A stretch of DNA of 64,000 nucleotides from the NCBI RefSeq assembly GCF_011761565.1, contig NZ_JAASRM010000001.1, positions 3,844,139 through 3,908,138 on the forward strand. The letters run 5' to 3'. The stretch comes from Rhizomicrobium palustre. Its GTDB lineage: Bacteria; Pseudomonadota; Alphaproteobacteria; Micropepsales; Micropepsaceae. Position numbers and translations under genes: made by a program. Below the pieces are notes generated by a model. That model was not told the DNA's origin, ran no database searches, and saw only the letters and a list, made by a program, of their open reading frames with translations. This document shows, piece by piece, positions 40,303 through 47,867 of the stretch (the first letter of the stretch is position 1; each line of letters opens with the position of its first letter).

Positions 40303-41262
40303 ATGAGCGAACCAGCCAAACATGTGGTGGAGATCGGACTTTCAGCGGCCATTGTCTCGGTCGCGGAAGACAGCCCCACCGTGCTGGTCGTGCATACCCC
40401 TTCGGGCGATGACGCCCTGCCGTTCGGCCCCTTCGACCCCATCGCACACCGCACCCTCGAAAGCGGCCTTCGCACCTGGGTGGGCGAGCAGACCTATCTC
40501 GATCTCGGCTATGCCGAGCAGCTTTACACCTTTGGCGATCGCGGCCGGCACACCCTGAAACCGGGCGAGAATGCCCGCGTGGTGTCGGTCGGCTATCTCG
40601 CGCTGACCCGCCAAGGCGCCGAGAGCAAAGCTCCGGACACGCTGTGGCGGGACTGGTACCGCTTCTTTCCCTGGGAAGATTGGCGCGACGAACGCCCGGC
40701 GGTGCTGGACGAGACCATCATGCCCGCGCTCGATCGTTTCGTGGCCGAGGCGCCCGATAAGCCGACTGCCGCCCTTCGCCGGGATCGCGCCCGCCTCTGT
40801 TTCGGCACCGACGACATCGGCTGGGATGAGGAAAAGGTTCTGGAGCGCTACGAGCTTCTCTATGAGGCCGGGATCATCGCCGAAAGCGCGCGCGACGGGC
40901 GTGTCGCCAAAGAGCATGTCTTGCCGCTTGGGGACCGTATGATGTTCGACCATCGCCGCATTCTGGCGACCGCCATCGCGCGGCTGCGCGGCAAGATGAA
41001 ATACCGCCCGGTGGTGTTCGAGCTGATGCCGCCCTGCTTTACGCTTCTGGATTTGCAGCGCACCGTTGAGGCGATTTCCGGCACCCGGCTGCATAAGCAG
41101 AATTTTCGGCGCCTGGTGGAAGATCAGGGCCTGGTGGAAGGCACCGGAAAATTCGCCGCCCCCGCCCGCGGCCGCCCCGCCGAACTCTTCCGCTTCCGCC
41201 GCGAAGTCCTCAGCGAACGCCCGTCGCCAGGTGTGCGTCTGGCGAGACAGAGGGCGGGTTAG
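40303..41262 (+). CDS. nadQ: NadQ/NrtR-like transcriptional regulator of NAD synthesis
   Basis: A 319-residue protein with an N-terminal Nudix-like domain (about residues 10-150) and a C-terminal winged helix (about 215-305: FELMPPCFTLLDLQRTVEAISGTRLHKQNFRRLVEDQGLVEGTG, then GRPAELFRFR). The Nudix box is degenerate (the usual GxxxxxExxxxREL pattern reads FDPIAHRTLESGLRTWVGEQ), so a ligand-binding rather than hydrolytic role is likely. The winged helix resembles NrtR and the alphaproteobacterial NadQ family, which represses NAD genes. nadABC lies about 3 kb downstream behind two matching palindromes. Assignment to NadQ rather than NrtR is inference. The gene overlaps fghA tail to tail by 53 bases. 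Confidence 0.75.
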   Translation: MSEPAKHVVEIGLSAAIVSVAEDSPTVLVVHTPSGDDALPFGPFDPIAHRTLESGLRTWVGEQTYLDLGYAEQLYTFGDRGRHTLKPGENARVVSVGYLALTRQGAESKAPDTLWRDWYRFFPWEDWRDERPAVLDETIMPALDRFVAEAPDKPTAALRRDRARLCFGTDDIGWDEEKVLERYELLYEAGIIAESARDGRVAKEHVLPLGDRMMFDHRRILATAIARLRGKMKYRPVVFELMPPCFTLLDLQRTVEAISGTRLHKQNFRRLVEDQGLVEGTGKFAAPARGRPAELFRFRREVLSERPSPGVRLARQRAG

Positions 41263-42100
41263 CCTCTCCCCTGAGCGCCTTCGCATGCCACGCCACATGC
41301 GCGCCGATGAAGCTGGCGATGAAGTAATAACTGTGGTCATAGCCGGAGCGCATATTGAGGACCAGCTTATGCCCCACGGCATCGCAGGCCGCTTGCAACA
41401 GATGCGGCTTGAGTTGGGTTTCTAAAAACTCATCGCCCAGCCCTTGCTCGACCAGAAGCGGCAAGCGCTCTGAAGCCGTCTTCACCAGCTCCACCGCGTC
41501 ATAGGCTTTCCAGGCTTCACGGTCCTCGCCGAGATAGGCGGTGAACGCCTTCTCGCCCCAGGGCACTTGGCTTGGCGCCACGATGGGCGAAAAGGCCGAG
41601 ACGCTTTTATACCGCCCCGGATTTTTCAGCGCGATGGTGAGCGCCCCATGCCCGCCCATGGAATGGCCGCTGATCGCGCGCGCCTCGGTCGCCGGAAATT
41701 CGGCTTCGATCAGCTCCGGCAATTCCTTCACGATGTAATCATACATGCGGAAATGCTTGGCCCAGGGCTCCTCAGTAGCGTTGAGATAAAACCCCGCACC
41801 TTGCCCCAGATCATAAGCCGGATCATTGGCGACGCCCTCACCCCGCGGGCTGGTATCAGGCGCCACAAGGATCACGCCATGCTCCGCCGCATAACGCTGC
41901 GCGCCTGCCTTGGTGATGAAATTCTGCTCGTTGCAGGTCAGCCCCGAGAGCCAATACAAAACCGGCAGGCGATCCTTTTCTGCGTCCGGCGGCAGATAGA
42001 CGGAAAAATTCATCGCGCAACCGAGCGTTTTGGACTCGTGGCGATAGACATCCTGATAGCCGCCGAATGAGGCGCGATGCTCGATGCGTTCCATAGCCAT
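41210..42100 (-). CDS. fghA: S-formylglutathione hydrolase
   Basis: Hydrolyses S-formylglutathione to formate and glutathione. It is 296 residues with an alpha/beta-hydrolase fold of the esterase D family. LPVLYWLSGLTCNEQNFITKAG, the nucleophile in ISGHSMGGHGAL, and the histidine region GYDHSYYFIASFIGAHVAWHA are conserved. The C-terminal extension of about 15 residues overlaps the nadQ gene in antisense. The start is one base after the stop of the class III dehydrogenase gene. Confidence 0.94.
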   Translation of the reverse strand: MAMERIEHRASFGGYQDVYRHESKTLGCAMNFSVYLPPDAEKDRLPVLYWLSGLTCNEQNFITKAGAQRYAAEHGVILVAPDTSPRGEGVANDPAYDLGQGAGFYLNATEEPWAKHFRMYDYIVKELPELIEAEFPATEARAISGHSMGGHGALTIALKNPGRYKSVSAFSPIVAPSQVPWGEKAFTAYLGEDREAWKAYDAVELVKTASERLPLLVEQGLGDEFLETQLKPHLLQAACDAVGHKLVLNMRSGYDHSYYFIASFIGAHVAWHAKALRGEANPPSVSPDAHLATGVR

Positions 42101-42101
42101 C

Positions 42102-43220
<1,119 letters not shown>

Positions 43221-44120
43221 TTAGCGCAAATCCTCCAGCACCTTGGCAAAATCCGTGGCGCAACGAAATCCCAATTTCGCTTCGGCTTTGGCTGTCGAAT
43301 AGACCCGGTCGATGGCGGAAAACATCGTCCAGCCGCGCTTTTCATAGAGCGCCCGGTAGTGCGGGAAATAGCGCGCAACCACGGCTGGCGCATCCGCGAT
43401 CAAAGCTTCGCAATCTTCCGGGCTGAAAGGCGTCGGCGCCGAGACGATGAACGTGTCAAAGCCGATCTCAGGGGCTTTTGTAAGCGCCACAACATGCGCC
43501 TCAGCGGCATCCTCCACCGTCAGCCGCCGGAACAAGAACTCGTTCGCCTTGGTGTTGTCGCCGGATTGCACGATCGTATGCGCCATGTCGTCTTCTTCGG
43601 GGAAGAAGCGCGCCGTGCGCAGCACTACACAAGGCAAACCCTGCTCGTGAAAGGCCAAGCGGCAAAGCTGCTCGGCAGCGAATTTGGTGATGCCATAGAT
43701 ATTGCGCGGCTCAGGCGCGAGGGTCTCGTCGATCCATTCGGCTTTCTTGGCCCCGCCTGCCTTGCCCGCACGGATGCTCTTGGAAATCATCAGCGAGGTG
43801 GTGGAGGTGAAAACAAAGCGCGAGGCGCCCTGTGCAACCGCCTCTTCCAAAAGGTTCTGCGTTCCTTGCACATTGGTGGCGATGAAGGCCGAAGCCGGAT
43901 GCTTGACGATATCGGGCTTATGCAGCGCGCCCGAATGGATCACCGCCTCCACGCCCTCCATCGCGTGGGCGACGGTCTCGCGGTCCGCGACCGATCCGAC
44001 AATTTGTGTGCATGGTCCAGGCAAGATATCGAGCCCCACCACCACATGGCCATCCTGCGCCAAGCGCGGAGCAAGCGTCCGTCCCAGCCAACCCGAAGAT
44101 CCGGTCAAAAGAATACGCAT
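43221..44120 (-). CDS. NAD-dependent epimerase/dehydratase (extended SDR)
   Basis: A 299-residue extended short-chain dehydrogenase. The nucleotide motif is LLTGSSGWLGRTLAPRLAQDGH, the active-site pair is in YGITKFAAEQLCRL (YxxxK), and TSTTSL is the serine region. The sequence lacks features that would fix its sugar or alcohol substrate. It is the first gene of the minus-strand set with frmA and fghA. The divergent nadABC operon begins about 230 bases away, and the shared intergenic region holds the operators. Confidence 0.82.
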   Translation of the reverse strand: MRILLTGSSGWLGRTLAPRLAQDGHVVVGLDILPGPCTQIVGSVADRETVAHAMEGVEAVIHSGALHKPDIVKHPASAFIATNVQGTQNLLEEAVAQGASRFVFTSTTSLMISKSIRAGKAGGAKKAEWIDETLAPEPRNIYGITKFAAEQLCRLAFHEQGLPCVVLRTARFFPEEDDMAHTIVQSGDNTKANEFLFRRLTVEDAAEAHVVALTKAPEIGFDTFIVSAPTPFSPEDCEALIADAPAVVARYFPHYRALYEKRGWTMFSAIDRVYSTAKAEAKLGFRCATDFAKVLEDLR

Positions 44121-44250
44121 GGAGCGCAGGTAAGCACCCGAGGTCGCCTTGAAAAGTCCGCCCTAGGGAAAAAATGACAACCCTCCGGATCCAAAATGAC
44201 GCGCCCATTTATAAACTTCCGTTCAGAAAGCTTATGAGTGCAATTCGCTC

Positions 44251-44280
44251 TTGACCCGACTTATCCTCATGTGCAGCATA
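44251..44280 (+). promoter_or_regulatory. NadQ-type operator 1 with overlapping promoter-like -35
   Basis: TATCCTC (44262-44268), a five-base spacer, and CAGCATA (44274-44280) form an imperfect palindrome. TTGACC at 44251-44256 could be a -35 box, so a repressor here would block promoter access. The second, better palindrome is exactly 63 bp downstream. The two share TAT-CTCA-GT--AGCATAA in the same orientation. Confidence 0.55.
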
Positions 44281-44324
44281 AAGACGCTACCCGGCCCTTG
44301 AAGCCGGTTTCTTTGCACCCCATA

Positions 44325-44343
44325 TATACTCAAGTAGAGCATA
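44325..44343 (+). promoter_or_regulatory. NadQ-type operator 2
   Basis: TATACTC (44325-44331), spacer AAGTA, and GAGCATA (44337-44343): the arms are inverted complements at six of seven positions. It ends 13 bases before the nadA ATG and would interfere with the transcript start or ribosome binding. It repeats operator 1 at a distance of 63 bp, six helical turns, allowing binding on one DNA face. Confidence 0.6.
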
Positions 44344-44356
44344 AGTGGACAGCGTC

Positions 44357-45388
44357 ATGGATATTCTGCCTTTCACGCCCGCCGTCGCCCGCGAAACCGA
44401 GGCCCTCAAGGCCCGGATGATGAAGGTCATCCCGGAGATCGAATGGCCGGTGCACGCGCCCTATATCGCCGCGATCAATGCGCTCAAGCGCGAGAAGAAC
44501 GCCGTCATCCTGGCGCATAACTACATGACGCCCGAGATTTTCCATGGCGTGGCCGATTTCGTCGGCGACTCGCTGCAGCTCGCCCGCCTCGCCGCCAAGA
44601 CCGAGGCCAAGCTGATCGTGCAGGCTGGCGTCCATTTCATGGCCGAGACCTCTAAGGTTCTGTCGCCGGAAAAGACCGTTCTTATTCCCGATCCCCAGGC
44701 GGGCTGTTCGCTTGCCGCCTCCATCACCGGCGCCGATGTTCGCCTCTTGAAGCAGACCTATCCCGGCCTGCCGGTGGTGACCTATGTTAACACCTCGGCT
44801 GAAGTGAAGGCCGAAAGCGATGTCTGCTGCACCTCCTCCAACGCGGTGGCGGTGGTGGAAGATATCGCCCGCGAATGGGGCGTCGATACCGTGATCATGG
44901 TGCCCGATGAATTCCTCGCCCAGAACGTCGCCAAGCTGACCAAGATCAAGGTCATCACCTGGAAGGGCCATTGTGAGGTACACGAGCGCTTCACGGCGGA
45001 GACCATCCGCGATTTCCGCGACAGCCATCCCGGCGTGATCGTGATCGCCCATCCCGAATGCCCGCCCTCCGTGGTGGCGGAAGCCGATTTCGCGGGTTCC
45101 ACTTCGGGCATGATCGATTTCGTGGCGCAGAAACAACCTCAGAAGGTCGTACTCGTCACTGAATGCTCGATGAGCGACAACGTTGCTGTTGAATTTCCCA
45201 AGGTCGATTTCGTGCGGCCCTGCAATCTCTGCCCGCACATGAAGATGATCACCCTGCCGAAAATTTTGCACGCGCTGCAAACAAACACGGTGGAAGTGAC
45301 GGTCGATGCCGCCATTGCCGAACGGGCCAAAAAGGCCGTGGAACGCATGCTGGCGGTGCCTGTGAAGGCTGCGCGTCAGGCGGCGTAA
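44357..45388 (+). CDS. nadA: Quinolinate synthase
   Basis: Condenses iminoaspartate with dihydroxyacetone phosphate to quinolinate. The 343 residues carry the 4Fe-4S cysteines in [22 protein letters not shown] and [11 protein letters not shown]. The start region [27 protein letters not shown] is typical. ATG at 44357 is preferred; an in-frame GTG at 44345 overlaps operator 2 closely. It is the first gene of nadA-nadB-nadC. Confidence 0.95.
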
Positions 45389-45407
45389 ACGCCGAAGGAA
45401 AATTGGA

Positions 45408-46997
45408 ATGACAAGCCATCTGGGCAATGTCATCGAAAGCGAGGGCGCGCTTATTCTGGGCGCGGGCGTCGCTGGTTTATTCACCGCCTTGAAGCTGGCA
45501 CCTTATCCCTGCCTGGTGCTCGCCGATGAGCGACCTGGCGTGTCGGGCTCGAGTGCTTGGGCGCAAGGCGGCATCGCCGCCTCGGTCGGCAAAGGCGATA
45601 CTTGGCAATCTCATGCCGCCGATACGGTGGCGGCGGGCGCAGGCCTGACCGATCCAGAAATTGCTGCGCTGGTGGCGCGTGAAGCCCCTGCCCGCATCAA
45701 CGATCTTCTTTCTTACGGCGCGCCGTTTGACCGTGACGCCGATGGCTCGATCGCCGTGGCGCGCGAGGCCGCGCATTCCGCCAGCCGCATCGTGCATGTG
45801 AAAGGCGACCGCGCCGGTGCCGAAGTCATGGCGGCGCTGGCCAAATGCGCTTTCGCGGCACCTTCCATTCGTTTTGTGGAAGGCTATCACGCCGTCGAGC
45901 TGGCGCTGGAAAATGGCCGTGTCGTCGGAGTCTTCGCCCGCAGCTGGACCTCCAACGCAGACGCACCCCGCCTCATCCTGATCCGTGCTAAGGCGGTGGT
46001 GATGGCGACGGGCGGGCTCGGCGCCTTATATGCCGTCTCCACCAATCCGCCGGAATCGCGCGGAGAAGGTCTTGGCATGGCGGCGCGCGCAGGCGCGGTG
46101 ATCGCCGACCCCGAATTCGTGCAATTCCATCCCACCGCCATCGCGGTGAACAAAGACCCTGCCCCGCTCGCTACCGAAGCCTTGCGCGGTGAAGGCTCTA
46201 TCCTGATCGATGAAACCGGCCGCCGCTTCATGCCGTCGGTGCATGAAAACGCAGAGCTTGCGCCGCGCGATGTGGTGGCGCGCGCCATTCATCGCGAGAT
46301 CGCCGCAGGCCATAAGGTGTTTCTGGATTGCACCAAATCGGTCGGCGCCGAATTTCCGCATCATTTTCCAACCGTCTATCAGGCCTGCAAAGAGGCCGGG
46401 ATTGATCCGGTCACGCAACCGATCCCTGTCGCCCCCGCCGCGCATTACCACATGGGCGGCATCGCTACCGATCAACGCGGGCGCACCTCGCTCGAAGGGC
46501 TTTGGGCAGTCGGCGAATGCGCGTCTACCGGACTACATGGCGCCAATCGGCTTGCCTCTAATTCGTTGCTCGAAGGCTTGGTGTTTGGCGCCCGCGCCGC
46601 GGAGGACATCAAGAGCAATCCCGCGCCTGCCATCAGCCACGCGGCGCTGCTGCCGCCGGTCGTCAGCTATTGTGCCCCGCCCGTGCCGCGTCCGTTGCGC
46701 GAGGTGATGAGCCGTCTCGTCGGTCTCGAACGCAATGAGGCCGGCCTCAAGGAAGCGCTTGGCAAGATCGCGCAGATCGAACGCGCAGGCGGCTATGATC
46801 CCTCGCTCCTCAACATGACATCTGCGGCCCGTCTGGTGATTGCTGGCGCGCTTGCCCGGCAGGAGAGCCGGGGCAGCCATACCCGCACCGATTATCCCAA
46901 GACGGACGCCCACGGGAGCCGCAACTTCCTCACCCTGGCCGAGGCCAACCGGCTGGCTGAGGAAATCCTTCCAGCCTCCGCCTGCGCCGCCCGCTAA
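45408..46997 (+). CDS. nadB: L-aspartate oxidase
   Basis: FAD enzyme producing iminoaspartate from aspartate. It is 529 residues. FAD is bound by ALILGAGVAGLFTALKLA. The fumarate-reductase-like active site reads GVSGSSAWAQGGIAAS, QFHPTAIAV, HYHMGGIATD and GLHGANRLASNSLLEGLVFGARAA. The C-terminal helical domain is present (SRLVGLERNEAGLKEALGKI). AAGGAAA precedes the ATG. The stop is 18 bases before nadC. Confidence 0.95.
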   Translation: MTSHLGNVIESEGALILGAGVAGLFTALKLAPYPCLVLADERPGVSGSSAWAQGGIAASVGKGDTWQSHAADTVAAGAGLTDPEIAALVAREAPARINDLLSYGAPFDRDADGSIAVAREAAHSASRIVHVKGDRAGAEVMAALAKCAFAAPSIRFVEGYHAVELALENGRVVGVFARSWTSNADAPRLILIRAKAVVMATGGLGALYAVSTNPPESRGEGLGMAARAGAVIADPEFVQFHPTAIAVNKDPAPLATEALRGEGSILIDETGRRFMPSVHENAELAPRDVVARAIHREIAAGHKVFLDCTKSVGAEFPHHFPTVYQACKEAGIDPVTQPIPVAPAAHYHMGGIATDQRGRTSLEGLWAVGECASTGLHGANRLASNSLLEGLVFGARAAEDIKSNPAPAISHAALLPPVVSYCAPPVPRPLREVMSRLVGLERNEAGLKEALGKIAQIERAGGYDPSLLNMTSAARLVIAGALARQESRGSHTRTDYPKTDAHGSRNFLTLAEANRLAEEILPASACAAR

Positions 46998-47015
46998 CCT
47001 TTCCAGAGACGATGA

Positions 47016-47867
47016 ATGCCCGCTAACCTTCGCCCGCCGCCCGCGCTGCTGATCGAACCCTTGGTGCGCCGGGCGCTGGAGGAGGATTTGGGCCGGGCCG
47101 GTGACCTCACCTCCGACCTCATTCTCCCCCCAGGTCAGCAAGGCATGGCGGCGCTGGTCGCACGGCGTGAGGGGGTGATTTCAGGCCTGCAAGTCGCCGC
47201 CCTCGCCTTTGGACTGGTAGACAGCGCCCTCAGCGTCCGTCAGGAGGCTCAGGACGGCGATAAAGTTCCAGCAGGCACGAGGCTCATGGTCCTTGAAGGC
47301 GCCGCCAGGAGCCTTCTGACGGGCGAGCGCGTGGCGCTCAACTTCGTCGGGCACCTCTCCGGGGTCGCCACCGCGACGCGTGCCTTGGTGGATGCCGTGG
47401 CCGGTACGAAGGCAAGAATTGTATGCACCCGCAAAACAACTCCCGGTCTGCGCGTGTTGGAGAAATACGCTGTACGCTGCGGTGGCGGCTTTAACCATCG
47501 CTTCGGTCTCGATGACGCGATCATGATCAAGGATAACCATATCGCCGCCGCGGGTGGGATCACCGCAGCCGTGGAGCGGGCCCGCGCGGGCATCGGCCAT
47601 ATGCTGAAAATAGAGGTCGAGGTCGACACACTCACCCAGCTCGAAGAGGCCCTGAGCCTCGGCATCGACACCATCCTGCTCGACAACATGCCGCCCGCGA
47701 TGCTGCGCGAGGCTGTGGCGCTCAACAACGGCCGCGCCACGCTCGAGGCTTCCGGCAATGTCACGCTTTCCACCGTGCGCGCGATTGCTGAGTCTGGTGT
47801 CGACTACATTTCTTCGGGTGCGCTCACCCACTCCGTAGCAAATTTGGATGTGGCCTTGGATTTTTGA
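47016..47867 (+). CDS. nadC: Nicotinate-nucleotide pyrophosphorylase (carboxylating)
   Basis: Converts quinolinate and PRPP to nicotinate mononucleotide. It is 283 residues. RRALEEDLGRAGDLTSDLILP opens the N-terminal domain. TRKTTPGLRVLEKYAVRCGGGFNHRFGLDDAIMIKDNHI carries the phosphate and quinolinate residues, and IDTILLDNMPPAML and ASGNVTLSTVRAIAESGVDYISSGALTHS complete the barrel. It is the last gene of the nad operon. Confidence 0.96.
   Translation: MPANLRPPPALLIEPLVRRALEEDLGRAGDLTSDLILPPGQQGMAALVARREGVISGLQVAALAFGLVDSALSVRQEAQDGDKVPAGTRLMVLEGAARSLLTGERVALNFVGHLSGVATATRALVDAVAGTKARIVCTRKTTPGLRVLEKYAVRCGGGFNHRFGLDDAIMIKDNHIAAAGGITAAVERARAGIGHMLKIEVEVDTLTQLEEALSLGIDTILLDNMPPAMLREAVALNNGRATLEASGNVTLSTVRAIAESGVDYISSGALTHSVANLDVALDF

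Follow-up and report, generated by a model that had tools for sequence, protein, structure and literature searches.

The nadABC operon of Rhizomicrobium palustre is preceded by two palindromes that look like genuine NadQ operators, here called O1 (distal) and O2 (proximal), and between the two lies a short element with the shape of an intrinsic terminator, a GC hairpin followed by a T-tract, whose distance to O2 is fixed. The two sites, their co-occurrence with nadQ, the complementarity of the stem, the T-tract and the constant hairpin-to-O2 distance are observed in the analysed DNA (64,000 nucleotides, referred to as the window) and in its relatives; the terminator-like element was missed in an earlier, sequence-only reading of the window. 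On balance we lean towards a switch with two locks, in which NadQ bound at O1 would block initiation, and NadQ bound at O2 would stall the polymerase on the U-tract, where the hairpin would terminate transcription. For the wider proposal, that many alphaproteobacterial families carry a repressor-triggered intrinsic terminator and that DNA-bound NadQ at O2, not an RNA switch, decides nadABC attenuation, we put the chances at about even. The features of the locus are collected in Table 1.

Table 1. Coordinates in the window of the features discussed in the text
Feature	Position	Strand	Basis and remarks
nadQ, presumed repressor	40303-41262	+	PDB 7q91 and NrtR-type winged helix
Presumed -35 of the nadA promoter, TTGACC	44251-44256	+	sequence; ends 5 bp before O1
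O1, distal predicted NadQ site	44262-44280	.	TATCCTC-N5-CAGCATA; 12/14 consensus positions; kept across the order; overlaps the presumed -10
Presumed -10, CAGCAT (TAGCAT in most relatives)	44274-44279	+	right half of O1; 17 bp from TTGACC
Leader hairpin	44291-44307	+	5 GC pairs, loop of 7; CCGGC-CCTTGAA-GCCGG; terminator scan, RNA fold
T-tract TTTCTTT, 3' of the stem	44308-44314	+	sequence; T-richness kept in relatives
O2, proximal predicted NadQ site	44325-44343	.	TATACTC-N5-GAGCATA; 14/14 consensus positions
nadA	44357-45388	+	Pfam, NCBIfam, ORF list; the ORF list begins nadA at an in-frame GTG, 44345
nadB	45408-46997	+	Pfam, NCBIfam, ORF list
nadC	47016-47867	+	Pfam, NCBIfam, ORF list

The sequences and coordinates of the two palindromes, as given in the sequence-only reading, proved exact: they lie 63 bp apart, measured from start to start, and O2 ends 13 bases before the ATG of nadA at 44357. 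The genes follow in the order nadA-nadB-nadC and span 44357-47867 of the forward strand. Both palindromes fit the NadQ consensus ttATRCTCannntGAGYATaa, which is placed before nad genes in the consulted portion of PMC5343134, and their interpretation as NadQ operators, predicted from sequence, was upheld. A scan for the palindrome in the whole genome (4.26 Mb), which had also been proposed, returned O2 as the sole exact match to the consensus core; with up to 2 mismatches 17 matches were obtained vs 11 with a reversed control pattern, and with up to 3 mismatches 153 vs 146, so that predicted NadQ sites beyond nadABC are in little excess over the control in this genome. Since the 3 matches observed in the window with up to 3 mismatches are close to the 2.70 expected, O1, which has 2 mismatches, would not stand out on its own.

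The gene at 40303, which the sequence-only reading had called NadQ-like, is by sequence NadQ (COG4111). Its product is similar over its whole length to PDB entry 7q91, 'NADQ transcription factor' (E 3.1e-85, residues 13-315), and contains a C-terminal NrtR-type winged helix at residues 238-298 (PF21906, E 1.1e-19). Identity as NrtR was not indicated, the score with the NCBIfam equivalog NF050029 (62 bits) being below the cut-off of 400, and no Nudix domain was matched in a Pfam search. ATP is reportedly named as NadQ effector in the title of a paper, and the structure of NadQ is said to be the subject of Minazzato et al. 2022, J Struct Biol 214:107917. The latter appears among the references in the part of PMC11452294 that was consulted. 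Regulation of nadABC by NadQ was published as a comparative prediction, as far as the available part of PMC5343134 goes, and two sites per operon may already have been noted in this prediction or in the 2022 structure paper. Between nadQ and nadABC (41210-44120) the opposite strand carries genes for an S-formylglutathione hydrolase, a class III alcohol dehydrogenase and a short-chain epimerase-like protein; in a relative of the same genus (G016) nadQ and nadA are separated by approximately 0.7 kb.

Conservation of the sites was determined in two samples. The order sample consisted of 96 genomes, with nadQ in 89 and a nadA match in 87 (9 had none), from which 88 nadA upstream regions were obtained. 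Two sites agreeing with the consensus in at least 11 of 14 positions were found in 82 of the 88 regions, and in 85 the proximal site was preceded, at 55-80 bp, by a second one (at least 10/14). The class sample consisted of 387 genomes, 161 of which had a nadA match at E 1e-30. Six of these fall within the order, 38 with a distant nadA were left out, and the regions upstream of 117 close nadA relatives from outside the order were taken. Loci were labelled nadQ+ or nadQ- by hand, and matches to the C-terminal domain alone were left out. The palindrome, whose absence upstream of nadA in related genomes with nadQ had been named as the finding that would speak against the operators, was present with a score of at least 12/14 at 90 of the 92 nadQ+ loci vs 0 of the 25 nadQ- loci; these score thresholds (10, 11 and 12 of 14), as well as the classes of spaced and tight pairs used below, were set after the first loci had been inspected. 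Because the operators are conserved in the order and tied to nadQ in the class sample, they represent more than chance matches. The two nadQ+ loci lacking a site of this quality are those of G286 and G408, and in G408 two sites at 11/14 are present with, as judged by eye, a clear stem and a T-tract between them. A strict tandem-pattern scan of the class recovered 7 of the 387 genomes and is too strict to serve as a measure of frequency. In two loci from one genus of the order (L130 in G015, L149 in G014) a perfect O2 is kept, and neither O1 nor the hairpin was seen.

The distance between the two sites varies. It was 60-74 bp in 85 order loci, and the 90 class loci with a site fell into 34 spaced pairs (53-81 bp), 23 tight pairs (20-36 bp) and 33 loci with single sites or other arrangements, G286 and G408 being left out of this division. 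In the sequence-only reading the 63 bp, corresponding to six turns of 10.5 bp, had been taken as a sign of cooperative binding or looping, and near-full turns (62-64 or 73-74 bp) were indeed found in 53 of the 85 order loci. However, 18 of the 85 have spacings of 67-70 bp, which would place the sites towards opposite faces of the helix, and the range among spaced pairs outside the order is wider still, so that cooperativity or looping that depends on the helical phase of the two sites appears very unlikely, and phasing as a conserved requirement was rejected. Thus, the part of the earlier interpretation that named the palindromes as NadQ operators is borne out by the consensus, the gene and the co-occurrence with nadQ, whereas the part that relied on six helical turns has to be given up; the distance that stays constant is that between hairpin and O2. 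O1 and O2 may cooperate independently of phasing.

The sequence-only reading had O1 overlapping TTGACC. This hexamer ends 5 bp short of O1, and it is the presumed -10 that the operator overlaps. In 74 of 82 order loci a TTGAC begins 8-12 bp ahead of O1, and in 24 of 34 spaced class loci the corresponding distance is 8-13 bp. O1 has T at its position 13 in 71/82 and 24/34 loci of the two groups, respectively, whereas the same position of O2 is G in all of them (82/82 and 34/34). With T at position 13 the right half of O1 becomes TAGCAT, a plausible -10, and O1 probably departs from symmetry because it carries this element. A generic promoter scan called no promoter at TTGACC/CAGCAT. Counting from the presumed -10, we estimate that transcription starts near 44286. 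O2 begins 46 bp downstream of the end of the presumed -10. As O2, the better-matching site, is thus downstream of the inferred start, NadQ bound there would act on elongation, as a roadblock.

The element between the operators (44291-44314) has the shape of an intrinsic terminator, with a stem ending approximately 17 nt before O2. Taken from the window alone, the evidence for it is weak: a terminator scan of 301 bases found 1 vs 0.4 expected, and the hairpin is present in the predicted fold of the leader, whose z score is -1.48 relative to shuffled sequences (19 of 200 shuffles were as good). In the same predicted fold the transcribed O2 palindrome forms a weak hairpin of its own. No Rfam family was matched in 43900-44700 up to E 1.

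In the relatives, the 55 nt before O2 were examined by the criterion of the terminator scan, namely at least 5 pairs, at least 3 of them GC, a loop of 3-8 and at least 5 T in 8 positions. Such an element was detected in 69 of the 88 order regions, vs a mean of 4.5 (maximum 11) in dinucleotide shuffles and 5 on the opposite strand, and in 22 of the 34 spaced pairs of the class, vs 1.8 (maximum 6) in shuffles and 2 on the opposite strand. It was found in 0 of 23 tight pairs (shuffles 0.4), in 6 of 33 single or other loci (shuffles 1.2, maximum 4) and in 1 of 25 regions before nadA of nadQ- genomes (shuffles 0.48). Where the terminator was detected, its stem ended 15-18 nt before O2 in the order (69 of 69 loci) and 14-20 nt before it in the spaced pairs of the class (22 of 22). 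The distance from O1 to the stem is variable, being 7-17 nt in 75 of the 79 order loci for which it was obtained with the first hairpin caller. The terminator counts rest on the scan because this first caller missed or misplaced hairpins (it returned none in 8/88 order loci and placed several wrongly).

The T-tract was also scored independently of hairpin calling, as 5 or more T among the 7 positions from -17 to -11 before O2. By this measure it was present in 75 of 88 order regions and in 28 of 34 spaced class loci, the latter from 16 families, and was missing in 13 and 6, respectively; among tight pairs it occurred in 1/23 and among single or other loci in 7/33. The T-rich columns of the spaced class loci extend from -16 to -11. 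An A-tract in the same position was seen in 0 of 178 loci.

Attenuation that is independent of NadQ has to be weighed against the two-lock reading at this point. In plain double-operator repression O1 would block initiation, O2 would be a simple roadblock or would stabilise binding at O1, and the hairpin would be a constitutive attenuator setting a low basal level. Many nadQ+ loci outside the order, namely the tight pairs and most of the single or other loci, do without the hairpin; therefore NadQ control does not need it, as this explanation would have it. A constitutive attenuator, however, has no need for a fixed distance to O2, and no need to be limited to spaced pairs in the way the T-tract is. 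We regard plain repression as rather doubtful, though it is the likeliest of the alternatives.

Whether the stem is maintained by pairing was assessed by asking how often the 3' arm finds its complement within its own locus as compared with other loci, a test used in place of RNAalifold, which found no consensus structure in a MAFFT alignment of 84 leaders, probably because loops and stems differ in length. Of the spaced loci, 23 of 34 contained the complement of their own arm, vs a fraction of 0.137 between families, and of the order loci 78 of 88 did so, vs 0.228 between genera; in both cases 0 of 2000 permutations were as high. Tight pairs gave no signal (1/23), and for single or other loci the value (6/33 vs 0.106) was equalled in 269 of 2000 permutations. 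The loci are related by descent, which makes the counts non-independent and the outcome of shuffles and permutations look more certain than it is; a safer figure is the one based on a single locus per family (13/20 vs 0.113, 0/2000 permutations). The stem sequence varies from family to family and complementarity stays, so that it is the pairing that has been kept, as expected of an RNA hairpin: by sequence comparison, the stem is conserved through complementarity rather than through its sequence.

These observations also bear on two explanations in which the hairpin does not terminate transcription. The symmetry of the repeat and its fixed distance from O2 could indicate the DNA site of another regulator, with the T-tract bending the DNA. 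However, the stem changes in sequence from family to family and keeps its complementarity; moreover, the tract consists of T when read on the nad strand, with A in none of the loci scored, and opposite-strand terminators are rare (5/88 in the order, 2/34 in the spaced class loci), so that this possibility seems exceedingly remote. Alternatively, the hairpin could protect the 5' end of the nadABC mRNA or regulate its translation. It would be near the 5' end if the estimated start is right, but neither the T-tract behind the stem nor the fixed distance to a DNA site would have a role, and we consider such a function highly improbable.

A further alternative assigns one operator to each of two promoters. 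The second promoter would have its -10 in O2 and its -35 in the TTGAA of the loop or where the T-tract ends, and the hairpin would insulate it from upstream transcription. Loops in the order often read TTGAA, and O2 begins with the -10-like TATRCT. The gap of 21 bp between TTGAAG and TATACT in the window is too long, however, the loop sequence is not conserved in genus g6 or outside the order, and the T-tract, as judged by eye, often runs on without a TTG. Taken together, these points make a second promoter unlikely.

In the two-lock reading, NadQ dimers would occupy both O1 and O2. Initiation would be prevented at O1, which would contain the -10 of nadA. A polymerase that escaped and started near 44286 would have made only about 5 nt before transcribing the GC hairpin and the U-tract, and would then be halted by NadQ on O2, 17 nt past the stem, with its active site on the U-tract. 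The hairpin would free the halted polymerase, leaving a transcript of about 30 nt. Once NadQ has dissociated, with ATP as the reportedly named effector, the polymerase would pass the short terminator into nadABC. With approximately 5 nt between the estimated start and the stem, neither an antiterminator nor a leader peptide could be accommodated, and, considered with the absence of an Rfam match, there is no place for an RNA switch.

A rigid protein roadblock halts the polymerase 14 nt before its own site, according to the consulted part of PMC5499547. The position 14 nt before O2 is 44311, which is within the T-tract, and NadQ at O2 would thus be predicted to hold the polymerase where the hairpin can release it. 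Release by intrinsic terminators usually takes place 7-8 nt past the stem. The estimated stall, about 4 nt past the stem, falls short of this, which counts against the two-lock switch. In a related reading, the hairpin may serve to clear polymerases that have piled up at O2.

Parts of this arrangement are known from other systems. Repressor family, operator consensus and nadABC as target are those of the NadQ regulon (COG4111), but a terminator is not mentioned in the part of PMC5343134 that was available, and the words 'terminat' and 'roadblock' are absent from that paper. Attenuators that employ intrinsic terminators likewise have a hairpin resembling a terminator in the leader of an operon for biosynthesis (PMC2965389, in part). 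In contrast to these, the approximately 5 nt ahead of the stem here would fit neither antiterminator nor leader peptide, and switching is proposed to depend on a protein bound to the DNA downstream. Repressor roadblocks likewise have an operator downstream of the start that blocks elongation; in the consulted sections of the review PMC10310618 the polymerase is said to be released by Mfd and perhaps by Rho, whereas the nadABC leader has a dedicated hairpin and U-tract where the polymerase is predicted to stall. YtgR of Chlamydia represses the promoter of trpRBA and promotes termination at its own operator, as described in the part of PMC6504234 considered, and is thus also a single repressor acting both on initiation and on termination at an operator. 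Regulator and promoter layout are different, however, and that part describes no intrinsic terminator at a fixed distance.

Our searches of open-access PMC turned up no account of an intrinsic terminator placed at a constant distance ahead of a repressor's operator. The binding-site part of the present findings is ordinary; the conserved terminator-operator unit, for which we infer the mechanism, is the addition made here. The fixed distance of hairpin and T-tract before the operator, with the T-tract occurring at spaced pairs in 16 families outside the order, points to a combined attenuator-repressor unit. If this is true, elongation control by an ordinary repressor would follow a rule that can be read from sequence, in which an operator located downstream of the start is preceded, at approximately 17 nt, by a hairpin. 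Other regulons could be scanned for this arrangement, and removal of a roadblock-stalled polymerase would become testable at a natural promoter.

Other layouts were also seen among the class loci. In loci such as those of G128, G235, G315 and G443 (L272, L304, L302 and L325) two predicted NadQ sites 22-34 bp apart stand straight after TTGAC, without a terminator. In Kiloniella (L193, L194, L197, L198 and L199) a third site is located 36 bp further upstream, and the proximal site is preceded by a long T-tract with only a short stem.
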